DNA from: Pleurocapsa minor HA4230-MV1
GTDB taxonomy: Bacteria; Cyanobacteriota; Cyanobacteriia; Cyanobacteriales; Xenococcaceae
NCBI GenBank assembly: GCA_019359095.1
Contig: JAHHHZ010000027.1
Coordinates: forward strand, 62,001 to 126,000
DNA length: 64,000 bases
Direction of reading: 5' to 3'
In this document: one piece after another, positions 8,921 to 53,566 of the stretch
How the letters are laid out: every line of letters begins with the position of its first letter
Numbering within the stretch: position 1 is the stretch's first letter
Position numbers and translations under genes: made by a program
The notes under the pieces: model-generated
What the model was told of the DNA's origin: nothing
The model's database searches: none
The model's input: the letters and a program-made list of their open reading frames with translations, nothing else

Positions 8921-9478
8921 ATGGCAAGTTTAAAATTAGAAGATGGCACAATATTAACTCAACCTCGTGATATTGCGCGCGAGTTAGCGCCTTTAAATAT
9001 TGAACTCCAGCATTGGTCGATGGGTGAAAATTCCCAACTGTTAGCCTTGTTGGCTCAACCTCAACTGAGGGAGTCTGAAAAAGCAGACATTTTGCAATAT
9101 TTAGATCACTACTTCCATGAACTACAAGCTAAAGATTGCTATCAATCTCGAGATTTAATTGTTGTGCATCCAGAACTTCCTCAACTCGATCGGATGTTGG
9201 ACAAGTTCGATCGCTGTCATACCCATGCCGACGATGAAGTACGTTATATCATTGATGGCGAAGGAATTTTTGGCTTCGTACGGCTTGACGCTTCCCAAAT
9301 AGAACTGACTGTCACAGCCTCAGAGTATATTAACGTACCTGCTGGTACTGAACACTGGTTTTACCTATCTCCTAGTCGTAGGATCAAGGCAATACGATAT
9401 TTTATCGATACGACGGGTTGGGTACCAGAATATACCAATACCCCGATTCGGTTTCGGCAGTCTGGTACGCTGGTATAG
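8921..9478 (+). CDS. mtnD: Acireductone dioxygenase (methionine salvage)
   Basis: Cupin-fold metal dioxygenase of 185 residues. It converts 1,2-dihydroxy-3-keto-5-methylthiopentene to 4-methylthio-2-oxobutanoate and formate when iron is bound. The metal ligands lie in CHTHADDEVRYI (H-x-H and the following Glu) and in GTEHWFYL (last His). It is the first gene of a three-gene methionine-salvage operon; mtnW starts 25 bp after its stop. The leader is AT-rich, and no riboswitch is seen. Placing it with the RuBisCO-like enolase and the dehydratase confirms its role in recycling methylthioadenosine. No phosphatase gene (mtnX or mtnC) for the intermediate step lies in the operon. Confidence 0.94.
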   Translation: MASLKLEDGTILTQPRDIARELAPLNIELQHWSMGENSQLLALLAQPQLRESEKADILQYLDHYFHELQAKDCYQSRDLIVVHPELPQLDRMLDKFDRCHTHADDEVRYIIDGEGIFGFVRLDASQIELTVTASEYINVPAGTEHWFYLSPSRRIKAIRYFIDTTGWVPEYTNTPIRFRQSGTLV

Positions 9479-9503
9479 AGATCGAAACGCAGGTCTAAAA
9501 ATC

Positions 9504-10580
9504 ATGTTGATTGAAGTTGATTATCTGTTTCCGCCCGATGTAGATGCGGAAAAACAAGCCACTATTATTGCCGTTGGTCAAACTGCTGGTACTTGGAGTC
9601 AGCGTTATGCCGATCGAGCTGATTCTTTACGCTCCCACTTAGCCACAGTGGTGGATGTTAAAGAGCGATCGCTAGGTAAAGTTGCTACCATCCGTTTTCC
9701 TCTGAGTAATGTAGAGAACGACATCCCCAGCTTGCTGGTAATGATTTTTGGTAAATATTCCATGGCGGGGGTAGCTAAGGTAATCGATATTCGGCTACCG
9801 AGTGATTACGGGCAGCGTCCGAAATTTGGCATTACGGGTATTCGCCAACATCTAAAAGTTTTCGATCGCCCGCTAGTAATGGCTATCTTTAAACCAGCCT
9901 TGGGTTTGAGTGCCAGCGATCACGCTACCATTCTTCAAGAAGTTGCTGGTGCTGGCTTGGACTTAATCAAAGATGATGAAATCATGGGCAATTTGAACAG
10001 TGCGCCTACCCTCGAACGTTTGAAAGCTTGTCGAGTTGTCATCAATGATCTCAAACAGCAAACAGGGAAAGAACTACTCTATGCTGTTAATGTTACGGGT
10101 AGAGCCGATCGCCTGCTAGCCAATGCACGGGAATTAGTAAGGGCTGGTGCCAATGCCTTGTTGTTAAATGTATTAGCCTATGGCTACTCCGTGCTGGAAG
10201 CGTTGGCTGCCGATCCTGAAATTAACGTTCCCATCTTTGCCCATCCCGCTTTAGCTGGAGCAATGTGTGGCTCACCACATTATGGCTTAGCCTATTCCGT
10301 TGTTTTAGGAACGCTGATGGCTCATGCTGGTGCTGATGCCGTACTATATCCAGCCCACTATGGGAGTCTGCCCTTTGCAGCTACTGAAGAAGCGCGTATT
10401 CGCGATCTTCTGCGCAGCCGTAATTGTTTTCCAGTACCATCGGCGGGTATTAAACCCGAGATCGTACCGCAAGTACTAGCCGATTATGGTCAAGATGTTA
10501 TTCTCAATGCAGGTACTGGTATTATGGATCATCCCCAGGGTTCTGCCGCTGGGGTGCAAGCTTTTCGCCAACAATTGTAA
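9504..10580 (+). CDS. mtnW: RuBisCO-like protein, DK-MTP-1-P enolase
   Basis: RuBisCO-like protein of 358 residues, expected to act as 2,3-diketo-5-methylthiopentyl-1-phosphate enolase in methionine salvage. It keeps the lysine motif FKPALGLS (Lys130) and the metal/carbamate motif KDDE (Lys156, Asp158, Glu159), equivalent to Lys201/Asp203/Glu204 of true RuBisCO. It lacks the loop-6 Gly-Lys-x-Glu-Gly-Glu-Arg motif present in RbcL at 30526-31941, so carboxylase activity is not expected. The protein is shorter than the roughly 400-residue Bacillus enzyme. Its stop overlaps the mtnB start (TAATG), implying translational coupling. Flanking mtnD and mtnB support the enolase role over other RuBisCO-like families. 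Confidence 0.92.
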   Translation: MLIEVDYLFPPDVDAEKQATIIAVGQTAGTWSQRYADRADSLRSHLATVVDVKERSLGKVATIRFPLSNVENDIPSLLVMIFGKYSMAGVAKVIDIRLPSDYGQRPKFGITGIRQHLKVFDRPLVMAIFKPALGLSASDHATILQEVAGAGLDLIKDDEIMGNLNSAPTLERLKACRVVINDLKQQTGKELLYAVNVTGRADRLLANARELVRAGANALLLNVLAYGYSVLEALAADPEINVPIFAHPALAGAMCGSPHYGLAYSVVLGTLMAHAGADAVLYPAHYGSLPFAATEEARIRDLLRSRNCFPVPSAGIKPEIVPQVLADYGQDVILNAGTGIMDHPQGSAAGVQAFRQQL

Positions 10581-11209
10581 TGAACGAATCAGACCCTCGT
10601 CCCTTTTTGATCGATGCCGCCCAGCAATTTTATCAACGACGATGGATGTACGGTACGGCGGGGAATTTATCCGCCAGATTGAACGATGGTAGTTTTTGGA
10701 TTACAGCCAGTGGTCGTGCCAAAGGAAATTTAACCGAACGCGATTTTGTCCGTTTAGTCCCCAGTGAAAACGATTTGATTTTGGCTATAGAGCAACCACA
10801 GCCACCACCTTCCCCTTCGGCAGAAACCAGTATCCATCAGGCTATTTACCAGCTTTTCCCCGCCGTCCGCGCTTGCTTTCACGTTCATTCGATTGAAGCA
10901 AACTTAGTAGCCAACCAGGCAGTAGCGGGCGAACTGGCTTTACCACCCTTAGAAATGCTCAAAGGCTTTGGTCTGTGGCAAGAGCATCCCCAAGTCGCCA
11001 TACCTGTTTTTACCAACCATTTAGAAGTACCCAAAATCGCCCAGGAGATTGTCGATCGCTTTTCTACTCTGCCACCGTCAGTCCCTGCCCTACTCATTGC
11101 CAATCATGGGGTCACAGTCTGGGGAGATTCGCTGCTGGAGACCTTTCAGCGACTAGAGATTGCTGAATACATTTTTTCTTACATGGTCTTACAGAAAAAA
11201 AACACTTAA
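10580..11209 (+). CDS. mtnB: Methylthioribulose-1-phosphate dehydratase
   Basis: Class II aldolase-fold zinc enzyme of 209 residues that dehydrates methylthioribulose-1-phosphate to diketo-methylthiopentyl-phosphate, the substrate of MtnW. Visible motifs are the substrate loop GTAGNLSAR, ITASGRAKGNL, the zinc-site HVHS and the later NHG (LIANHGVTVWG). The glutamate before the HVHS segment (SAETSIHQAIY) is also present. It overlaps mtnW by one base and closes the operon. After the stop the spacer holds a RuBisCO-unrelated repeat cluster and no clear terminator. MtnB-W-D cover three consecutive steps; isomerase mtnA and the phosphatase must be encoded elsewhere. Confidence 0.93.
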   Translation: MNESDPRPFLIDAAQQFYQRRWMYGTAGNLSARLNDGSFWITASGRAKGNLTERDFVRLVPSENDLILAIEQPQPPPSPSAETSIHQAIYQLFPAVRACFHVHSIEANLVANQAVAGELALPPLEMLKGFGLWQEHPQVAIPVFTNHLEVPKIAQEIVDRFSTLPPSVPALLIANHGVTVWGDSLLETFQRLEIAEYIFSYMVLQKKNT

Positions 11210-15956: not shown

Positions 15957-16922
15957 ATGCGAATCGAGCAGTTGCAAGCCTTTTTAGCAATTACGGAAAC
16001 AGGGAGTTTTGGACAGGCAGCAAAAAAATGTGGCGTAACTCAATCTACTATTAGCCGTCAAATACAGTCGCTAGAACAAGATTTAGGATTAATGCTGTTT
16101 CACCGCAGCACTCAAGCAAAATTGACCCTGGGTGGGGAGAAACTTTTACCTCGCGCTCAAAGAATTTGTCAAGAATGGCAAAAAACTACTAAAGAATTTG
16201 CTGAACTTATGGCAGGAAGGCAACCTGAACTTTGTATTGCTGCCATTCATTCCGTTTGCGCTCATTATTTACCGCCGATTTTGCAGCAGTTTTGTCAAGA
16301 CTATCCAGAAGTCCAGTTAAGAGTTACGGCATTGGGTAGCGATCGCGCCCTAAAAGTACTGCGGGATGGTTTAGTTGATGTGGCGATCGTCATGAACAAC
16401 CGTTTTTTAACCAACTCAGCCGAAATAGAGCTAGCCGTATTATATGAAGAACAGATTGATGTTTTAATGGCCGCTGAGCATCCTTTGAGTAAGCAATCGC
16501 ATATTTCACCTTTGGAGCTAGTTAAATATCCTCAAGTGGTCTTTAAAGACGGCTATGGTATGCAAAGATTGGTACAGGAATGGTTCGATCATCAAAATGT
16601 GCAGTTCAAAACGGCGATGGAGTTAAATACTTTAGATGCCTTTCGAGGAGTAATTCGCGCAGGAGAGATGATTGCTTTGTTGCCTCATAAAGCTCTGACT
16701 GACTCCTACAACGATCCAACTTTAGCGATCCGACCACTGCGATCGCCTGAATTAACCTCAGACAACAATGGATTTGAGTCGAATAGTATTCTGACTCGCC
16801 AGGTAGTAATGGTGACAACTAGCGATCGCCTCCTAATTCCTCCCATTGGTCATTTTTATAATTTAGTTCAAGATTTTAGTAAATCGTCAAAAATAGAAAA
16901 ATCACGGTTAGTTAATAAGTAA
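15957..16922 (+). CDS. ntcB: LysR-type nitrate-assimilation regulator NtcB
   Basis: LysR-family transcription factor of 321 residues. The N-terminal winged helix-turn-helix reads MRIEQLQAFLAITETGSFGQAAKKCGVTQSTISRQIQSLE. The rest is a periplasmic-binding-protein-like effector domain. I assign NtcB because the N-terminal pattern fits and because the next gene is CnaT: the ntcB-cnaT pair is known from Anabaena PCC 7120 (all0602-all0601), where both are needed for expression of the nitrate-assimilation (nir) operon. A candidate NtcA box lies upstream, as expected for an ntcB promoter. cnaT begins 15 bp after the stop. No nir, nrt or narB genes are in this window. Confidence 0.85.
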   Translation: MRIEQLQAFLAITETGSFGQAAKKCGVTQSTISRQIQSLEQDLGLMLFHRSTQAKLTLGGEKLLPRAQRICQEWQKTTKEFAELMAGRQPELCIAAIHSVCAHYLPPILQQFCQDYPEVQLRVTALGSDRALKVLRDGLVDVAIVMNNRFLTNSAEIELAVLYEEQIDVLMAAEHPLSKQSHISPLELVKYPQVVFKDGYGMQRLVQEWFDHQNVQFKTAMELNTLDAFRGVIRAGEMIALLPHKALTDSYNDPTLAIRPLRSPELTSDNNGFESNSILTRQVVMVTTSDRLLIPPIGHFYNLVQDFSKSSKIEKSRLVNK

Positions 16923-16937
16923 TTTTTGGTAGTATCC

Positions 16938-17987
16938 ATGAGCAATGAGTTTCGAGAATTACTGAAAAGAGTCGGCAGCGGGACTCATACTAGCAAAAAC
17001 TTAACCCGTGCCGAAGCAGCCACTGCTACAGAAATGATGCTGTTACAGACAGCCACCCCCGCTCAAATAGGCGCATTTATGATTGCCCATCGGATCAAGC
17101 GCCCAACACCAGAAGAATTAGCGGGTATTTTAGATACATTCGATCGATTAAGTCATAAGCTAGAAATTTTTCCTGCTCATCAATATCAGCCTGTGGTTTT
17201 AGGTACTCCCTATGATGGGCGATCGCGTACCGTTCCTGTAACCATAATTACGGCGCTAATTTTGGCTACGGCTAATGTCCCTGTAATATTGCATGGTGGC
17301 GACTGTCTGCCAACCAAATACGGCATTCCCCTAGTTGAAATTTGGCAGCAGTTGGGAGTAGATTTTTCCAGCTTAAATCTAGCTCAGGCGCAGAGTGTTT
17401 ACAATCAAACTAATCTTGGTTTCAGCTATCTCCCGCAACATTTTCCTGCTGCTCGCAGCTTTGTTACTTTTCGCGAGCAAATTGGCAAACGTCCTCCTTT
17501 TGCCACCGCAGAACTAGTCTGGTGTCCGATTGCTGGGGAGGCTCATCTAGTAGCTGGATTTGTGCATCCCCCCACAGAAGAGCGTTTTCGAGAAACTTTT
17601 AAGCTTAGAGGAACTAAAAACTATACTTTAGTCAAAGGCTTAGAAGGTAGTTGCGATCTTTCTCAAAACCGCACGGGAATCATGGCCTTAAGTCAGCCAG
17701 AGGGAGATTTTGAACGTCTTTTGCTAGATCCCCATAAATATGGCTTGAGCGGTTCTGATCTGACATTTGAATCAAATGCTCAAGCGATCGCTTTAATTAA
17801 AGAAACTATTCAAGGTGAGAAGAATCAACTATTATCTGCCGCAATTTTAAATGGCGGTTTCTATCTGTGGCGTTTTAAAATTACGCCTACTTTGGAATCA
17901 GGCTTTGCTTTAGCGGAACAGATGTTGACCACCGCAAAAGTTGCCCACAAACTATCTGAGCTTCAATCAGTAAGCAATGAACAGTAA
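16938..17987 (+). CDS. cnaT: CnaT, anthranilate phosphoribosyltransferase-like protein
   Basis: A 349-residue protein resembling TrpD-type glycosyltransferases (GTHTSKNLTRAEA, QIGAFMIAHRIKRPTPEELAG, ILHGGDCLPTKYG). The true TrpD loop GTGGD is changed (VLGTPYDGRSRTVPV), so tryptophan synthesis is unlikely. In Anabaena, CnaT is required for nir-operon expression by an unknown mechanism. I use the ATG at 16938 rather than the TTG at 16926, because it leaves a short leader and starts the family sequence MSNEFRELL. The gene is 15 bp after ntcB and is likely co-transcribed with it. Its stop codon is the first copy of a 7-bp tandem repeat leading to the next gene. Confidence 0.85.
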   Translation: MSNEFRELLKRVGSGTHTSKNLTRAEAATATEMMLLQTATPAQIGAFMIAHRIKRPTPEELAGILDTFDRLSHKLEIFPAHQYQPVVLGTPYDGRSRTVPVTIITALILATANVPVILHGGDCLPTKYGIPLVEIWQQLGVDFSSLNLAQAQSVYNQTNLGFSYLPQHFPAARSFVTFREQIGKRPPFATAELVWCPIAGEAHLVAGFVHPPTEERFRETFKLRGTKNYTLVKGLEGSCDLSQNRTGIMALSQPEGDFERLLLDPHKYGLSGSDLTFESNAQAIALIKETIQGEKNQLLSAAILNGGFYLWRFKITPTLESGFALAEQMLTTAKVAHKLSELQSVSNEQ

Positions 17988-18015
17988 TCAGTAATCAGTA
18001 ATCAGTAATCAGTAA
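17982..18015. repeat. 7-bp tandem repeat (STRR), unit CAGTAAT, forming the cnaT-MMADHC gap
   Basis: Four perfect CAGTAAT units plus a fifth ending in A. The first unit supplies the cnaT TAA stop and the last runs into the next ATG at 18016. The array is the whole intergenic sequence, and it leaves no room for a Shine-Dalgarno site. Confidence 0.9.
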
Positions 18016-18567
18016 ATGCGATCTCCACTTAGGCTAAATCTCCTCAATCCATCATCAGGAAAAGCAGTTGATGTCTGCGTAGCATCTCCCCACCAGTTTG
18101 CGATCGAACATCAACAACAGCTATTACCAGATTGGGAAACTCCTCTAAGCTATTTAATTTTAGTTTTACAACAATCAGCTATTTCTCTGCAAGAATCTAC
18201 TGTCTTAGTTGCAGCAGAAAAGGAGCGACTACGAGCAGAATTTATATGTTTTGGCTGTAATGTAATTTTCACCTTACGCGATCGAGGATATAGCAGCGAT
18301 TTATTCGATCCTCGTACTGGTTATCCCCTACTAGCTCCTCAAGACATGACCTGGGATGATAATGCAGCGGTCAAAGCTCTACTTAACTATCCTGTAGTAA
18401 ACCATCAACAATGTTCTTTAATTACCCATCCCATTTGGGAGCATCATGTATATCCTTCGACCATTGCCACCACTGCACCTCAAGCTCTGCTCATCTCAAG
18501 TTTGAAACAAGCGATCGTCAGTCAAAATTGGCAGCTTCAAGAATTGCTAACTGACCAAATCATGTGA
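18016..18567 (+). CDS. MMADHC (CblD)-family cobalamin-trafficking homolog
   Basis: A 183-residue soluble protein that resembles the C-terminal domain of MMADHC, the protein that routes cobalamin to methionine synthase and methylmalonyl-CoA mutase in animals. Shared landmarks are DPRTGYPLLAP (human DPSSGLAFFGP) and CSLITHPIWEHHVYPSTI (human CKVIRHSLWGTHVVVGSI), in the same order and spacing to the C-terminus. Cys133 falls where human Cys262, the residue that forms a Co-S bond, lies. Family alignment is from memory. It follows cnaT with no ribosome-binding site, so translation may be coupled or leaderless-like. A role in nitrate control is not known; context suggests the ntcB-cnaT transcript includes it. 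Confidence 0.75.
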   Translation: MRSPLRLNLLNPSSGKAVDVCVASPHQFAIEHQQQLLPDWETPLSYLILVLQQSAISLQESTVLVAAEKERLRAEFICFGCNVIFTLRDRGYSSDLFDPRTGYPLLAPQDMTWDDNAAVKALLNYPVVNHQQCSLITHPIWEHHVYPSTIATTAPQALLISSLKQAIVSQNWQLQELLTDQIM

Positions 18568-18770: not shown

Positions 18771-19058
18771 ATGTCAATTTACGTTGGTAATCTCAACTAT
18801 GAGGTTAGCCCAGAAGATTTAAGCGAAGTATTTTCAGAATACGGTAAAGTTAAACGAGTTCATCTTCCTACTGATCGTGAAACAGGTCGCAAACGCGGTT
18901 TCGGCTTTGTAGAAATGGAAACAGAAGCAGAAGAGGATAAAGCAATTGAGACTCTAGATGGAGCAGAATGGATGGGTCGCGAGATCAAAGTCAATAAGGC
19001 AAGACCTCGCGAAACCAGAAGTTCTTTCGGTGGTGGTGGTCGTCGAGATCGCTTCTAA
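18771..19058 (+). CDS. rbp: RRM-type RNA-binding protein (Rbp)
   Basis: Small RNA-binding protein of 95 residues with one RRM. RNP2 is IYVGNL (residues 3-8) and RNP1 is RGFGFVEM. A short Gly/Arg tail (FGGGGRRDRF) follows. I start at the ATG at 18771, preceded by CAGGAGA about 12 bases upstream; a longer frame from 18747 would place that ribosome-binding site inside the coding sequence. Cyanobacterial Rbp proteins bind mRNA and several are cold-induced or membrane-associated; some direct photosystem mRNAs to thylakoids. The long AT-rich leader upstream fits a regulated 5' UTR. A terminator-like hairpin follows, then a small basic protein gene. Confidence 0.93.
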   Translation: MSIYVGNLNYEVSPEDLSEVFSEYGKVKRVHLPTDRETGRKRGFGFVEMETEAEEDKAIETLDGAEWMGREIKVNKARPRETRSSFGGGGRRDRF

Positions 19059-51103: not shown

Positions 51104-52294
51104 CTAAATCAACCGCTGTTTAAATTCTTTTGCCTGCTGAGAATTAGGTATAGTTTCGGCTAATGAATTGCAAAATTCGCTTTTGCTCATGTTCGGATTT
51201 TGCTTAATTATACGTTGACATATAATATTTGCCATGGGACCAATAAACTCGGTTAATTCTTGACGACAGCGTGCGATAAACTCAGGAGTTACCTTGACGT
51301 TAAAGCTAGACGATAATATTGTCGTAGTAGCAGTGTTAGCCAATGATTTTTCAGCTAGAGAATGGTCGGAAATCTCATCAAACTTCTCATCTAAAACCTG
51401 TAAGCTGGAATCGATCCCAACCGCTGCTTGAAAAATTGCTCGACTATCAGAGGGTCGTTGCGCAGGAGAAAATGCCATCATGCGATCGATTAAATCAACA
51501 AATTCTGGAGCAATATCTGGTACGGCAGAATCCCAAATCAATTTTTCTTTAATTGAATCATAAAATGTAGCTGGGTTTTGAGCAGTCAAAAGGTAGATCA
51601 TCGTACCACCCAACGCATAAAAATCTGATTGCAGTACTGCTTTGCCTCTCGCTTGCTCAATCGGCGTAAAGCCTTGGGTGATAACTTGTGTAATTTCTCC
51701 TTCTACCATCTTCTGTAGGTAGCTTTGGGTTACTTCCCTAGCCGTACCAAAATCAATTAAAGCTAGACAGCCATTGGAACGCAACATAATGTTTGAGGGT
51801 TTTATATCTCGATGAAAAAAATTTTTGTTGTGTACTTGTTCCAGAAGTAAAGCTAATTCCGCTAGCCAACGTAAAGCTCTTTTTGGTTTAATCGGCAAAT
51901 TGCCACGTTGTTTGATATATTCATTAAGGTTTAATCCCTCAATTTTCTCCATCACCAAACAATGTAAAGGTTCTTTTCTACCTACGGCAAAATAGATAAA
52001 ATACCCATCTAAGTCCGTTTTAGGTATACCAGGATGATTGAGCATCCCTAACACCTGAGCTTCCTGTTTAAATAGCTCTACATATTTAGGATGATTGTCA
52101 ATTAATACTTTGAGTACCCAAGGACGAGAATTTAAATCTAATATTTCATAAGTTGTGCCAAATCCACCTTGACCCAGTTCTTTAACTACACGATATCTTC
52201 CGTCCAACAGTAGTTCTGAGCTACATTCCTGGCAAAAAATTAGGGTGTCTGAATTATGTATTTTTTTACATTCAGGATTAATGCATAGACTCAT
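51104..52294 (-). CDS. Ser/Thr protein kinase with N-terminal zinc ribbon
   Basis: A 396-residue Hanks-type kinase. A four-cysteine zinc ribbon (Cys4, Cys9, Cys21, Cys24) opens the protein. The kinase domain has GQGGFG (41-46), Lys62, HRDIKPSN (161-168) and DFGTA (181-185), so it should be active. A roughly 60-residue C-terminal domain (TPEFIARCRQELTEFIGPMANIICQRI) is of a type shared by cyanobacterial signalling proteins. There is no membrane segment. It lies convergent with the HAMP receptor and shares the locus with the PhnD-like lipoprotein, so it may be their output; this is inference. Confidence 0.9.
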   Translation of the reverse strand: MSLCINPECKKIHNSDTLIFCQECSSELLLDGRYRVVKELGQGGFGTTYEILDLNSRPWVLKVLIDNHPKYVELFKQEAQVLGMLNHPGIPKTDLDGYFIYFAVGRKEPLHCLVMEKIEGLNLNEYIKQRGNLPIKPKRALRWLAELALLLEQVHNKNFFHRDIKPSNIMLRSNGCLALIDFGTAREVTQSYLQKMVEGEITQVITQGFTPIEQARGKAVLQSDFYALGGTMIYLLTAQNPATFYDSIKEKLIWDSAVPDIAPEFVDLIDRMMAFSPAQRPSDSRAIFQAAVGIDSSLQVLDEKFDEISDHSLAEKSLANTATTTILSSSFNVKVTPEFIARCRQELTEFIGPMANIICQRIIKQNPNMSKSEFCNSLAETIPNSQQAKEFKQRLI

Positions 52295-52606: not shown

Positions 52607-53566
52607 CTATTTGGAATGACTATAAATTCTGCCCAAACTGCGATCGCTTTTTATTTCCACTACTAAATCAGTATGACTAAGTAAAGGCTTAATAAACAAT
52701 TCTGGATGAAGAGCTTTCCAGAAATACTCGACAAAGCGATCGATCTCCTCATCACTCATCCCCGATTTGCCAAGAGCAATCATTTTATGTTCGGCATCTT
52801 TGCGCCATTGTTTACTGAGACGATAATCTTCGGGATTTAAAACGATCAAACTGTCTAATTTTGACCATAGAGGTAAATATGCCTGAAGACGCTGATTATT
52901 ATCTCTAGCAAACTGCCGATCTTGTTCTGTAATTATCGGTGCAGGACAATGATTAAAAGAATCTAGTTCTAAAGGCTGTACACCGACAAACCAACCTTCA
53001 AACAAGAGAAGATCGGGTTTTGCTATGGCTTCTGGAGTAGTGCGATCGCCTGCACCATTAAATGCCGATTTATCAAACCGAGGTAGTAAAATCTGAGCAG
53101 GACTATTTTCTTCTAAGCACTGTTCAATTACCTTAAGACCCAAAGCTAGATCGTGTGTACCAGGAGGGCCTCGCCAGAGTAATCGTGGATCTTGCTGTTG
53201 TAGCGTTTGTCTTTGAGGGTAGGTTAAGTAAAGATCGTCAAGGGAAAGGGTAGCAACGGAAAAACCGAAATAACTCAGTATATGTTGAAGAATGATACAG
53301 AGGGTTGACTTACCTGTTCCTTGGCTGCCCAAAATTCCTTGAACAAAAGTCCGATTTAACTTTTGTCTTGCTGTAGCCAAATCTAATGCGATGGGTAGCC
53401 ATAATTTTTCTAAGGTAGAGACAATAGCATCTTGCTCTTTAAATCCAAAACTGTGACAGACTGACGTAACTTCAACCAAAAGCTCTGCATAAAACCTAGA
53501 CTCCTTACCCTGAACAATAAGACTTTCTAGTTTAAAATTATCTGCACTCTCCTGGTTCATGTTCAA
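52607..53566 (-). CDS. glyK: D-glycerate 3-kinase
   Basis: A 319-residue P-loop kinase of the plant-type GLYK family that returns photorespiratory glycerate to 3-phosphoglycerate. The Walker A is GILGSQGTGKSTL, followed by TLSLDDLYLTYPQRQTL and LPRFDKSAFNGAGDR, then LLFEGWFVGVQP, the glycerate-site motif. It belongs to photorespiration, the pathway that acts on the oxygenation product of RuBisCO, also encoded in the window. It is followed on its strand by a repeat spacer. The upstream gene (Ycf20) is on the same strand, 129 bp away. Confidence 0.9.
   Translation of the reverse strand: MNMNQESADNFKLESLIVQGKESRFYAELLVEVTSVCHSFGFKEQDAIVSTLEKLWLPIALDLATARQKLNRTFVQGILGSQGTGKSTLCIILQHILSYFGFSVATLSLDDLYLTYPQRQTLQQQDPRLLWRGPPGTHDLALGLKVIEQCLEENSPAQILLPRFDKSAFNGAGDRTTPEAIAKPDLLLFEGWFVGVQPLELDSFNHCPAPIITEQDRQFARDNNQRLQAYLPLWSKLDSLIVLNPEDYRLSKQWRKDAEHKMIALGKSGMSDEEIDRFVEYFWKALHPELFIKPLLSHTDLVVEIKSDRSLGRIYSHSK

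Follow-up and report, generated by a model that had tools for sequence, protein, structure and literature searches.

The window analysed here, a stretch of 64,000 nucleotides from Pleurocapsa minor HA4230-MV1 (contig JAHHHZ010000027.1, positions 62,001 to 126,000), carries a gene pair of the ntcB-cnaT type that is followed by a third gene, hereafter cblD, whose product is related to CblD (MMADHC), a B12-trafficking protein of animals. The reading that we favour, to which we assign a probability of about one half, is that cblD encodes a handler of cobalamin or pseudocobalamin, probably for MetH, and that the gene was captured by the ntcB-cnaT operon in a single pleurocapsalean genus. The link to nitrate control that had been proposed for this gene looks like a matter of local gene order and not like a general rule.

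The third gene encodes a CblD-type protein

The cblD product matched the Pfam model for MMADHC, PF10229, with 48.3 bits at a cut-off of 27 (E 1.5e-12), and the alignment placed residues 31–157 onto model positions 137–264, i.e., onto the C-terminal domain. It also matched four PDB CblD sequences (E 1.3e-6 to 1.5e-4), and a profile of 24 relatives reached PDB CblD at 4.4e-19, levels well outside what chance would produce; none of the NCBIfam models matched the protein at E ≤ 1. A structural model was calculated with AlphaFold2 from an alignment of 36 sequences (A2, the window protein plus 35 of 80 sequences left after a 90% identity filter) and had a mean predicted local distance difference test score of 83.6 and a predicted template modelling score of 0.81. 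A Foldseek search with this model returned eight PDB matches at E ≤ 0.001, all of them human or mouse CblD/MMADHC (best match 6x8z with E 5.9e-9 and template modelling scores of 0.66/0.75). Because solved structures went into the training of AlphaFold2, evidence from fold and from sequence is not fully independent here. Judged by its sequence and its predicted fold, the 183-residue protein is a true CblD homolog.

With MMADHC/CblD from human (5cuz, 6x8z, 9mrs) and mouse (5a4r), the cyanobacterial protein shares the modified nitroreductase-type C-terminal domain, a DP-x-x-G motif (DPRTGYP at residues 98–104) and a Cys-x4-His-x2-Trp loop (C133-x4-H138-P-x-W). It differs from them in the absence of the N-terminal region, and identity over the aligned part amounts to only 21–24%. 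Foldseek matches of the model to MMACHC/CblC (PF16690), which in animals binds CblD and is structurally related to it (PMC4705923), were not significant (best E 0.75). The ratios of non-synonymous to synonymous substitution rates determined against two close relatives, 0.086/0.58 and 0.108/0.54 (about 0.15 and 0.20), reveal purifying selection, and cblD is therefore a maintained gene.

A single invariant cysteine in the loop

The cblD product contains CSLITHPIWEHHVYPSTI, and Cys133 within it aligns with the second cysteine (Cys262) of the human Cys-Cys pair. Unlike the human protein with its two loop cysteines, the cyanobacterial protein thus has one, at the position of Cys262. Both Cys133 and His138 are invariant in all of the 140 distinct cyanobacterial family sequences that were obtained from 174 family-match loci by removing duplicates, although remote relatives without Cys133 could have been missed because the cysteine is fixed in the gathering profile. 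Cys133 and His138 are separated by four residues in 138 of the 140 sequences and by three in the other two, and it is Cys262 that has the four-residue spacing to the histidine in human CblD. The position preceding Cys133 is occupied by Lys, Gln, Asn, Asp, Glu, Gly, Arg, Ala, Leu or Ser and never by Cys (n = 140); the following residue is a second Cys in 27 of the 140 sequences. Cys133 and His138 sit in the part of the protein that is equivalent to human loop 255–266, which in predicted complexes is directed at the pocket of MTR for cobalamin; the same structural study, from 2026, holds Cys261 as well as Cys262 responsible for binding and loading (PMC13376404).

An earlier reading of the window, made from the sequence only, had likened the third gene to the C-terminal domain of MMADHC, expected a match to PF10229, aligned Cys133 with human Cys262 and expected the cysteine to be conserved in orthologs. 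All of this was borne out. The same sequence-only reading had taken human Cys262 as the residue that binds cobalt, which is inexact: PDB entry 6X8Z, the cobalt complex of the human protein, bears the title CblD(C262S)-thiolato-cob(III)alamin, and the cobalt-bound thiolate must be that of Cys261 because the crystallized protein is the C262S mutant.

Distribution of cblD among cyanobacteria

When the 24-sequence profile (A1, the window protein and 23 of 29 other proteins from a first search) was run against genomes from across the phylum, cblD was found in 67 of 386, and PF10229 alone matched in 47 of 291. The gene is present in 15 of 27 genomes of the window's family and in 12 of 13 of its genus. 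Among the relatives on scanned genome contigs, those from Hyellaceae CSU_1_1 and Pleurocapsa CCALA 161 were the closest named ones; no relative was found on viral contigs. In a phylogenetic tree of 37 sequences, genus and family each came out as monophyletic (100/99 and 98/94, respectively); resolution within the genus was low and some branches outside were long. The tree is consistent with a single capture in the genus, without proving it.

Distant copies of cblD occur among other genes on two Gloeothece plasmids (NC_011738.1 and NC_014533.1, loci L218 and L219). Their products belong to the same family, are 32–34% identical and are already annotated as MMADHC-type proteins with the GO term cobalamin metabolism. 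In contrast to the situation in the window, the 7 kb to each side contain no annotated ntcB or cnaT. On one of these large plasmids, about 3 kb separate the cblD-like gene from a gene for an integrase, and on the other it overlaps a gene for a nuclease A inhibitor.

Adjacency to cnaT was seen in only one genus among the genomes examined

Strong matches to cnaT were obtained for 61 of the 67 carriers of cblD, with both genes on one contig in 31 and on separate contigs in 30 cases. The six others are G121, G225, G278, G177, G262 and G379, the last of which has a partial match. Adjacent pairs of cblD and cnaT were encountered in only two of the 67 carriers, the window genome, where the ends of the two matches are 32 bp apart, and G064 from the same genus, where the distance is 48 bp; the next closest pair in the phylum sample is 21.9 kb apart. 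The loci at which cblD was found in the first search (L001–L030, flanks of about 1.5 kb, one shorter) gave the same picture, with cnaT appearing only in the window genome and in G064. Within the genus, 10 of 12 carriers have cnaT upstream of cblD. The gap is −4 to 68 bp in nine of these, and in the tenth it measures 801 bp and contains an RRM gene. ntcB is also present in eight of the ten loci, and in the remaining two the stretch or contig stops before it. The two exceptions within the genus are G408, a chromosome without cnaT in 8 kb, and G406, a 4.2-kb contig with another gene 79 bp upstream of cblD. In all three carriers from sister genera, cnaT is absent from the 8–9 kb stretches around cblD.

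For a broader view, the best 80 of 204 relatives from the scan of genome contigs were used as named loci. Five of them have cnaT beside cblD and correspond in sequence to five genomes of the genus. None of the other 75 has cnaT beside cblD, five of these (L107, L109, L147, L154, L163) with less than 500 bp upstream of the match. General synteny of cblD with ntcB-cnaT is thus rejected.

The expectation that cblD is kept near cnaT in other genomes therefore largely holds within the genus and fails beyond it in the genomes examined. The sequence-only reading had also suggested a connection between cobalamin or flavin chemistry and nitrogen control. As a general link this is unsupported because adjacency to cnaT was seen in only one genus, although a tie inside that genus is conceivable. 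A role of flavin is further weakened since mouse MMADHC reportedly binds neither FMN nor FAD (PMC4705923).

Sites resembling those of NtcA gave no support for a general link either. Of the 75 named loci outside the genus, 72 had 300 bp upstream of the called cblD gene, and GTA-N8-TAC occurred in this interval once, compared with 50 occurrences for 833 other, mechanically called genes at the same loci; there is thus no enrichment. None of five loci (window, L091–L094) has the same motif within 400 bp 5′ of ntcB, and the looser GTR-N8-YAC was present in one of them (L093, 27 bp upstream). The window as a whole contains 18 strict NtcA-type sites where 9.2 are expected, a number reached by 1 of 100 shuffles; two of the sites are located inside ntcB and cnaT and none in the region upstream of ntcB.

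B12-dependent enzymes, partners and riboswitches

The window genome encodes the MetH activation domain, and no match to MetE was found in it. The model for class II ribonucleotide reductase of the RTPR type gave merely a cross-match of 24.9 bits. A match to TIGR02504 stayed below the cut-off (276.8 versus 399.95 bits), and we read it as a class I enzyme because this model also matches E. coli. Of the few B12-dependent enzymes tested, MetH is thus the only clear client. For the human proteins, a recent study describes that MMADHC pulls down and loads MTR and that MMACHC binds MTR weakly at most (PMC13376404).

PF16690, the CblC model, matched none of 80 cyanobacterial genomes but likewise none of 14 control genomes. 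An RTPR-type match (E < 1e-50) was present in 27 of 43 carriers of cblD; 16 of 37 non-carriers had such a match too, although that of G314 is below the model cut-off. With p = 0.12 in Fisher's test, co-occurrence provides no support for this enzyme as a client. One carrier, G046 (L016, L050), a single contig of 3.8 Mb, matched neither MetH nor MetE nor either of the ribonucleotide reductase models. This record is probably incomplete or masked and was discounted as a carrier without MetH, and matches missing from other records, e.g., strong ones to cnaT from six of the carriers, may likewise reflect gaps.

A model for CblD function and its alternatives

Cyanobacteria usually make their own corrinoid, mostly pseudocobalamin. 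In the model that we favour, the stand-alone C-terminal CblD domain of cyanobacteria would hold cobalamin or pseudocobalamin via the Cys133 loop and pass it to MetH, in much the way that MTR is loaded by MMADHC in humans. No CblC partner would take part, and none may be needed because the corrinoid would be self-made and imported forms would require neither decyanation nor dealkylation. In one pleurocapsalean genus, cblD would have become the last cistron of the putative ntcB-cnaT operon, and this lineage-specific capture would therefore lead to co-expression with nitrate-control genes without making cblD a conserved part of nitrate control.

Several observations weigh against this model. A cysteine equivalent to human Cys261 occurs in none of the 140 sequences, and Cys261 is the cobalt ligand in the human C262S complex. 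MetH was detected in 79 of the 80 genomes tested (42 chosen as carriers, 38 as non-carriers), which makes its co-occurrence uninformative with regard to the client; given that cblD is present in only 67 of 386 genomes, MetH is not generally dependent on it. Cobalamin riboswitches reaching the gathering score were detected neither in the window nor at seven further loci, and none of the large clusters of cblD neighbours among the 80 named loci looks B12-related, with two clusters named by Pfam and the rest tentatively from sequence. Last, adjacency to cnaT has been kept in 10 of 12 species of the genus at 52–81% protein identity to the window's protein, which is more than expected for a very recent accident.

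This persistence would fit a functional role of cblD in nitrate control within the genus. The protein would then be a third component next to NtcB and CnaT, e.g., a cobalamin- or thiol-based sensor or adaptor tuning nir expression that depends on CnaT/NtcB. The short gaps in nine of ten loci, the presence of ntcB in eight of ten and an FdhD/NarQ-family gene near cblD in both species of sister genus g142 fit such a role. We nevertheless consider it improbable even for this genus: no other genus examined showed adjacency to cnaT, six of 67 carriers have no strong match to cnaT, at least 102 of the 164 genomes with cnaT above the cut-off in the 386-genome sample have no match to cblD, and the cblD genes of other genera show no enrichment of NtcA-like sites in front of them. 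A still bolder version, in which a CblC-free single-cysteine CblD is wired into the pleurocapsalean nitrate operon such that CnaT/NtcB, and with them nitrate assimilation, are directly modulated by the corrinoid or thiol status, strikes us as slightly less probable again. It contains a weaker and likelier half, namely that bacteria have a CblD-only route of cobalamin delivery to MetH.

A likelier alternative, which we still regard as rather doubtful, holds that the fold and the cysteine loop have been retained without any corrinoid, the protein serving as a thiol/disulfide or protein-interaction adaptor. It would account for the missing Cys261 equivalent, for the patchy occurrence of the family relative to MetH and for recurrent neighbours that are not B12-like, and it agrees with the description of MMADHC as a nitroreductase fold repurposed for protein interaction (PMC4705923). 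The invariant cysteine and histidine, on the other hand, are located in the part equivalent to the cobalamin-handling loop of the human protein, where both cysteines are held responsible for binding and loading (PMC13376404). Delivery to a B12 enzyme other than MetH, above all to class II ribonucleotide reductase of the RTPR type, appears very improbable. The more frequent RTPR-type matches among carriers point in this direction, but their excess falls short of significance, ancestry confounds the comparison, and the window genome itself has only the weak cross-match. A (pseudo)cobalamin handler that probably serves MetH remains our preferred interpretation of the cblD product.

The gene unit and its surroundings

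The features of the unit are compiled in Table 1. We know of no mechanism by which CnaT acts. ntcB, cnaT and cblD are oriented in the same direction and separated by small gaps, with cblD in the last position, 28 bp behind the cnaT stop codon.

Table 1. Features of the ntcB-cnaT-cblD unit and the adjoining downstream gene; positions refer to the window.
Feature	Position	Strand	Evidence and remarks
ntcB-type LysR regulator gene, 321 aa	15957-16922	+	PF00126 and PF03466
cnaT, anthranilate-phosphoribosyltransferase-like, 348 aa from ATG	16941-17987	+	NF005635/PRK07394; Glycos_trans_3N and Glycos_transf_3 domains
Tandem repeat, AATCAGT x 7.3	17965-18015	+	Tandem Repeats Finder; covers cnaT stop and gap before cblD
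cblD/MMADHC-like gene, 183 aa	18016-18567	+	PF10229, PDB CblD chains, predicted structure, dN/dS
RRM (RNA-binding) protein gene, downstream of cblD	18774-19058	+	RRM_1

CnaT is a strong match to its equivalog model (495.8 bits, cut-off 287); the gene is described in PMC9430850. In 12 of 30 cnaT loci from the phylum search, a LysR protein 64–68% identical to that of the window is encoded directly 5′ of cnaT on the same strand, and CnaT from these loci is 55–62% identical to window CnaT. Among the remaining 18 loci, 15 have a CnaT type of 39–43% identity and three a closer one (56–59%); a match to the LysR type of the window was not found within the sequenced stretches compared. The window pair was named ntcB-cnaT because of this synteny; the NtcB label, which also leans on the gene order in Anabaena, is a putative one. 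Other cyanobacteria of the same order have the pair in this arrangement as well. What sets the window apart is that cblD is beside the pair in none of those 12 genomes, nine of which carry cblD elsewhere and three of which have no match.

Shorter runs resembling the AATCAGT repeat were seen in the gap between cnaT and cblD in two relatives (L091, L092). The RRM gene follows 3′ of cblD in all ten loci of the genus with cnaT upstream; in the window it is probably a separate unit. About 5 kb upstream of the ntcB-cnaT-cblD unit, three consecutive genes (positions 8921–11209) resemble methionine salvage genes. The second encodes a RuBisCO-like protein with PF00016, and the first and third are presumably acireductone dioxygenase-like and class II aldolase-like, respectively. 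Elsewhere in the window, a protein kinase gene adjoins an open reading frame of 319 residues with a TTG start (51104–52294 and 52607–53566), for which there was no Pfam match at 1e-5.

Outside the genus, the neighbours of cblD vary. They were clustered for the 80 named loci, about 6.5 kb on each side where sequence was available, and none is universal, such that no conserved alternative neighbour revealing the function of cblD emerged. The largest clusters are K+-channel-like (41 loci), ExbB/MotA-type (31), argD-like (29), a 73-residue open reading frame (26), HODM-like (24), rsmH-like (22) and ndhH-like (19). ExbB and HODM were named by Pfam; the K+-channel-, argD-, rsmH- and ndhH-like labels are tentative ones given from the sequence. 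When whole stretches were searched by tblastn, ExbB (PF01618) was present in 33 and the HODM-alpha-like haem protein (PF11927) in 28 of the 75 loci. The HODM-like gene often follows cblD directly and in the same orientation (L110, L143 and others among L096–L170). In G395, cblD starts 6 bp after a gene for glucosylglycerol-phosphatase.

FdhD/NarQ proteins serve molybdenum enzymes. A gene for a member of this family (PF02634) lies 9 bp downstream of cblD in G392 of sister genus g142 (L179, 1549–2901), and in G393 of the same genus (L189, 1306–4779) the distance between such a gene and cblD, which share one strand, is about 2 kb. It was seen only in g142 and in none of the 75 named loci. We take it as a weak second hint, from one genus, toward a tie with nitrate or molybdenum enzymes.

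Implications

CblD has been studied mainly as a B12-trafficking protein of animals, and a study on fungal genomes states that what exactly it does in organisms other than animals has not been documented (PMC8085122). We found no paper on cyanobacterial CblD in the open-licence literature, which is weak evidence of absence. The nitrate angle is the less important one, as it concerns the gene order of one genus, even though this genus still offers a natural third gene beside CnaT. What remains of interest is a bacterial CblD family with a single invariant loop cysteine. With a cysteine at one of the two human positions, and apparently without CblC, it would provide a simple system in which to ask which cysteine carries cobalamin and whether CblD alone may load MetH.

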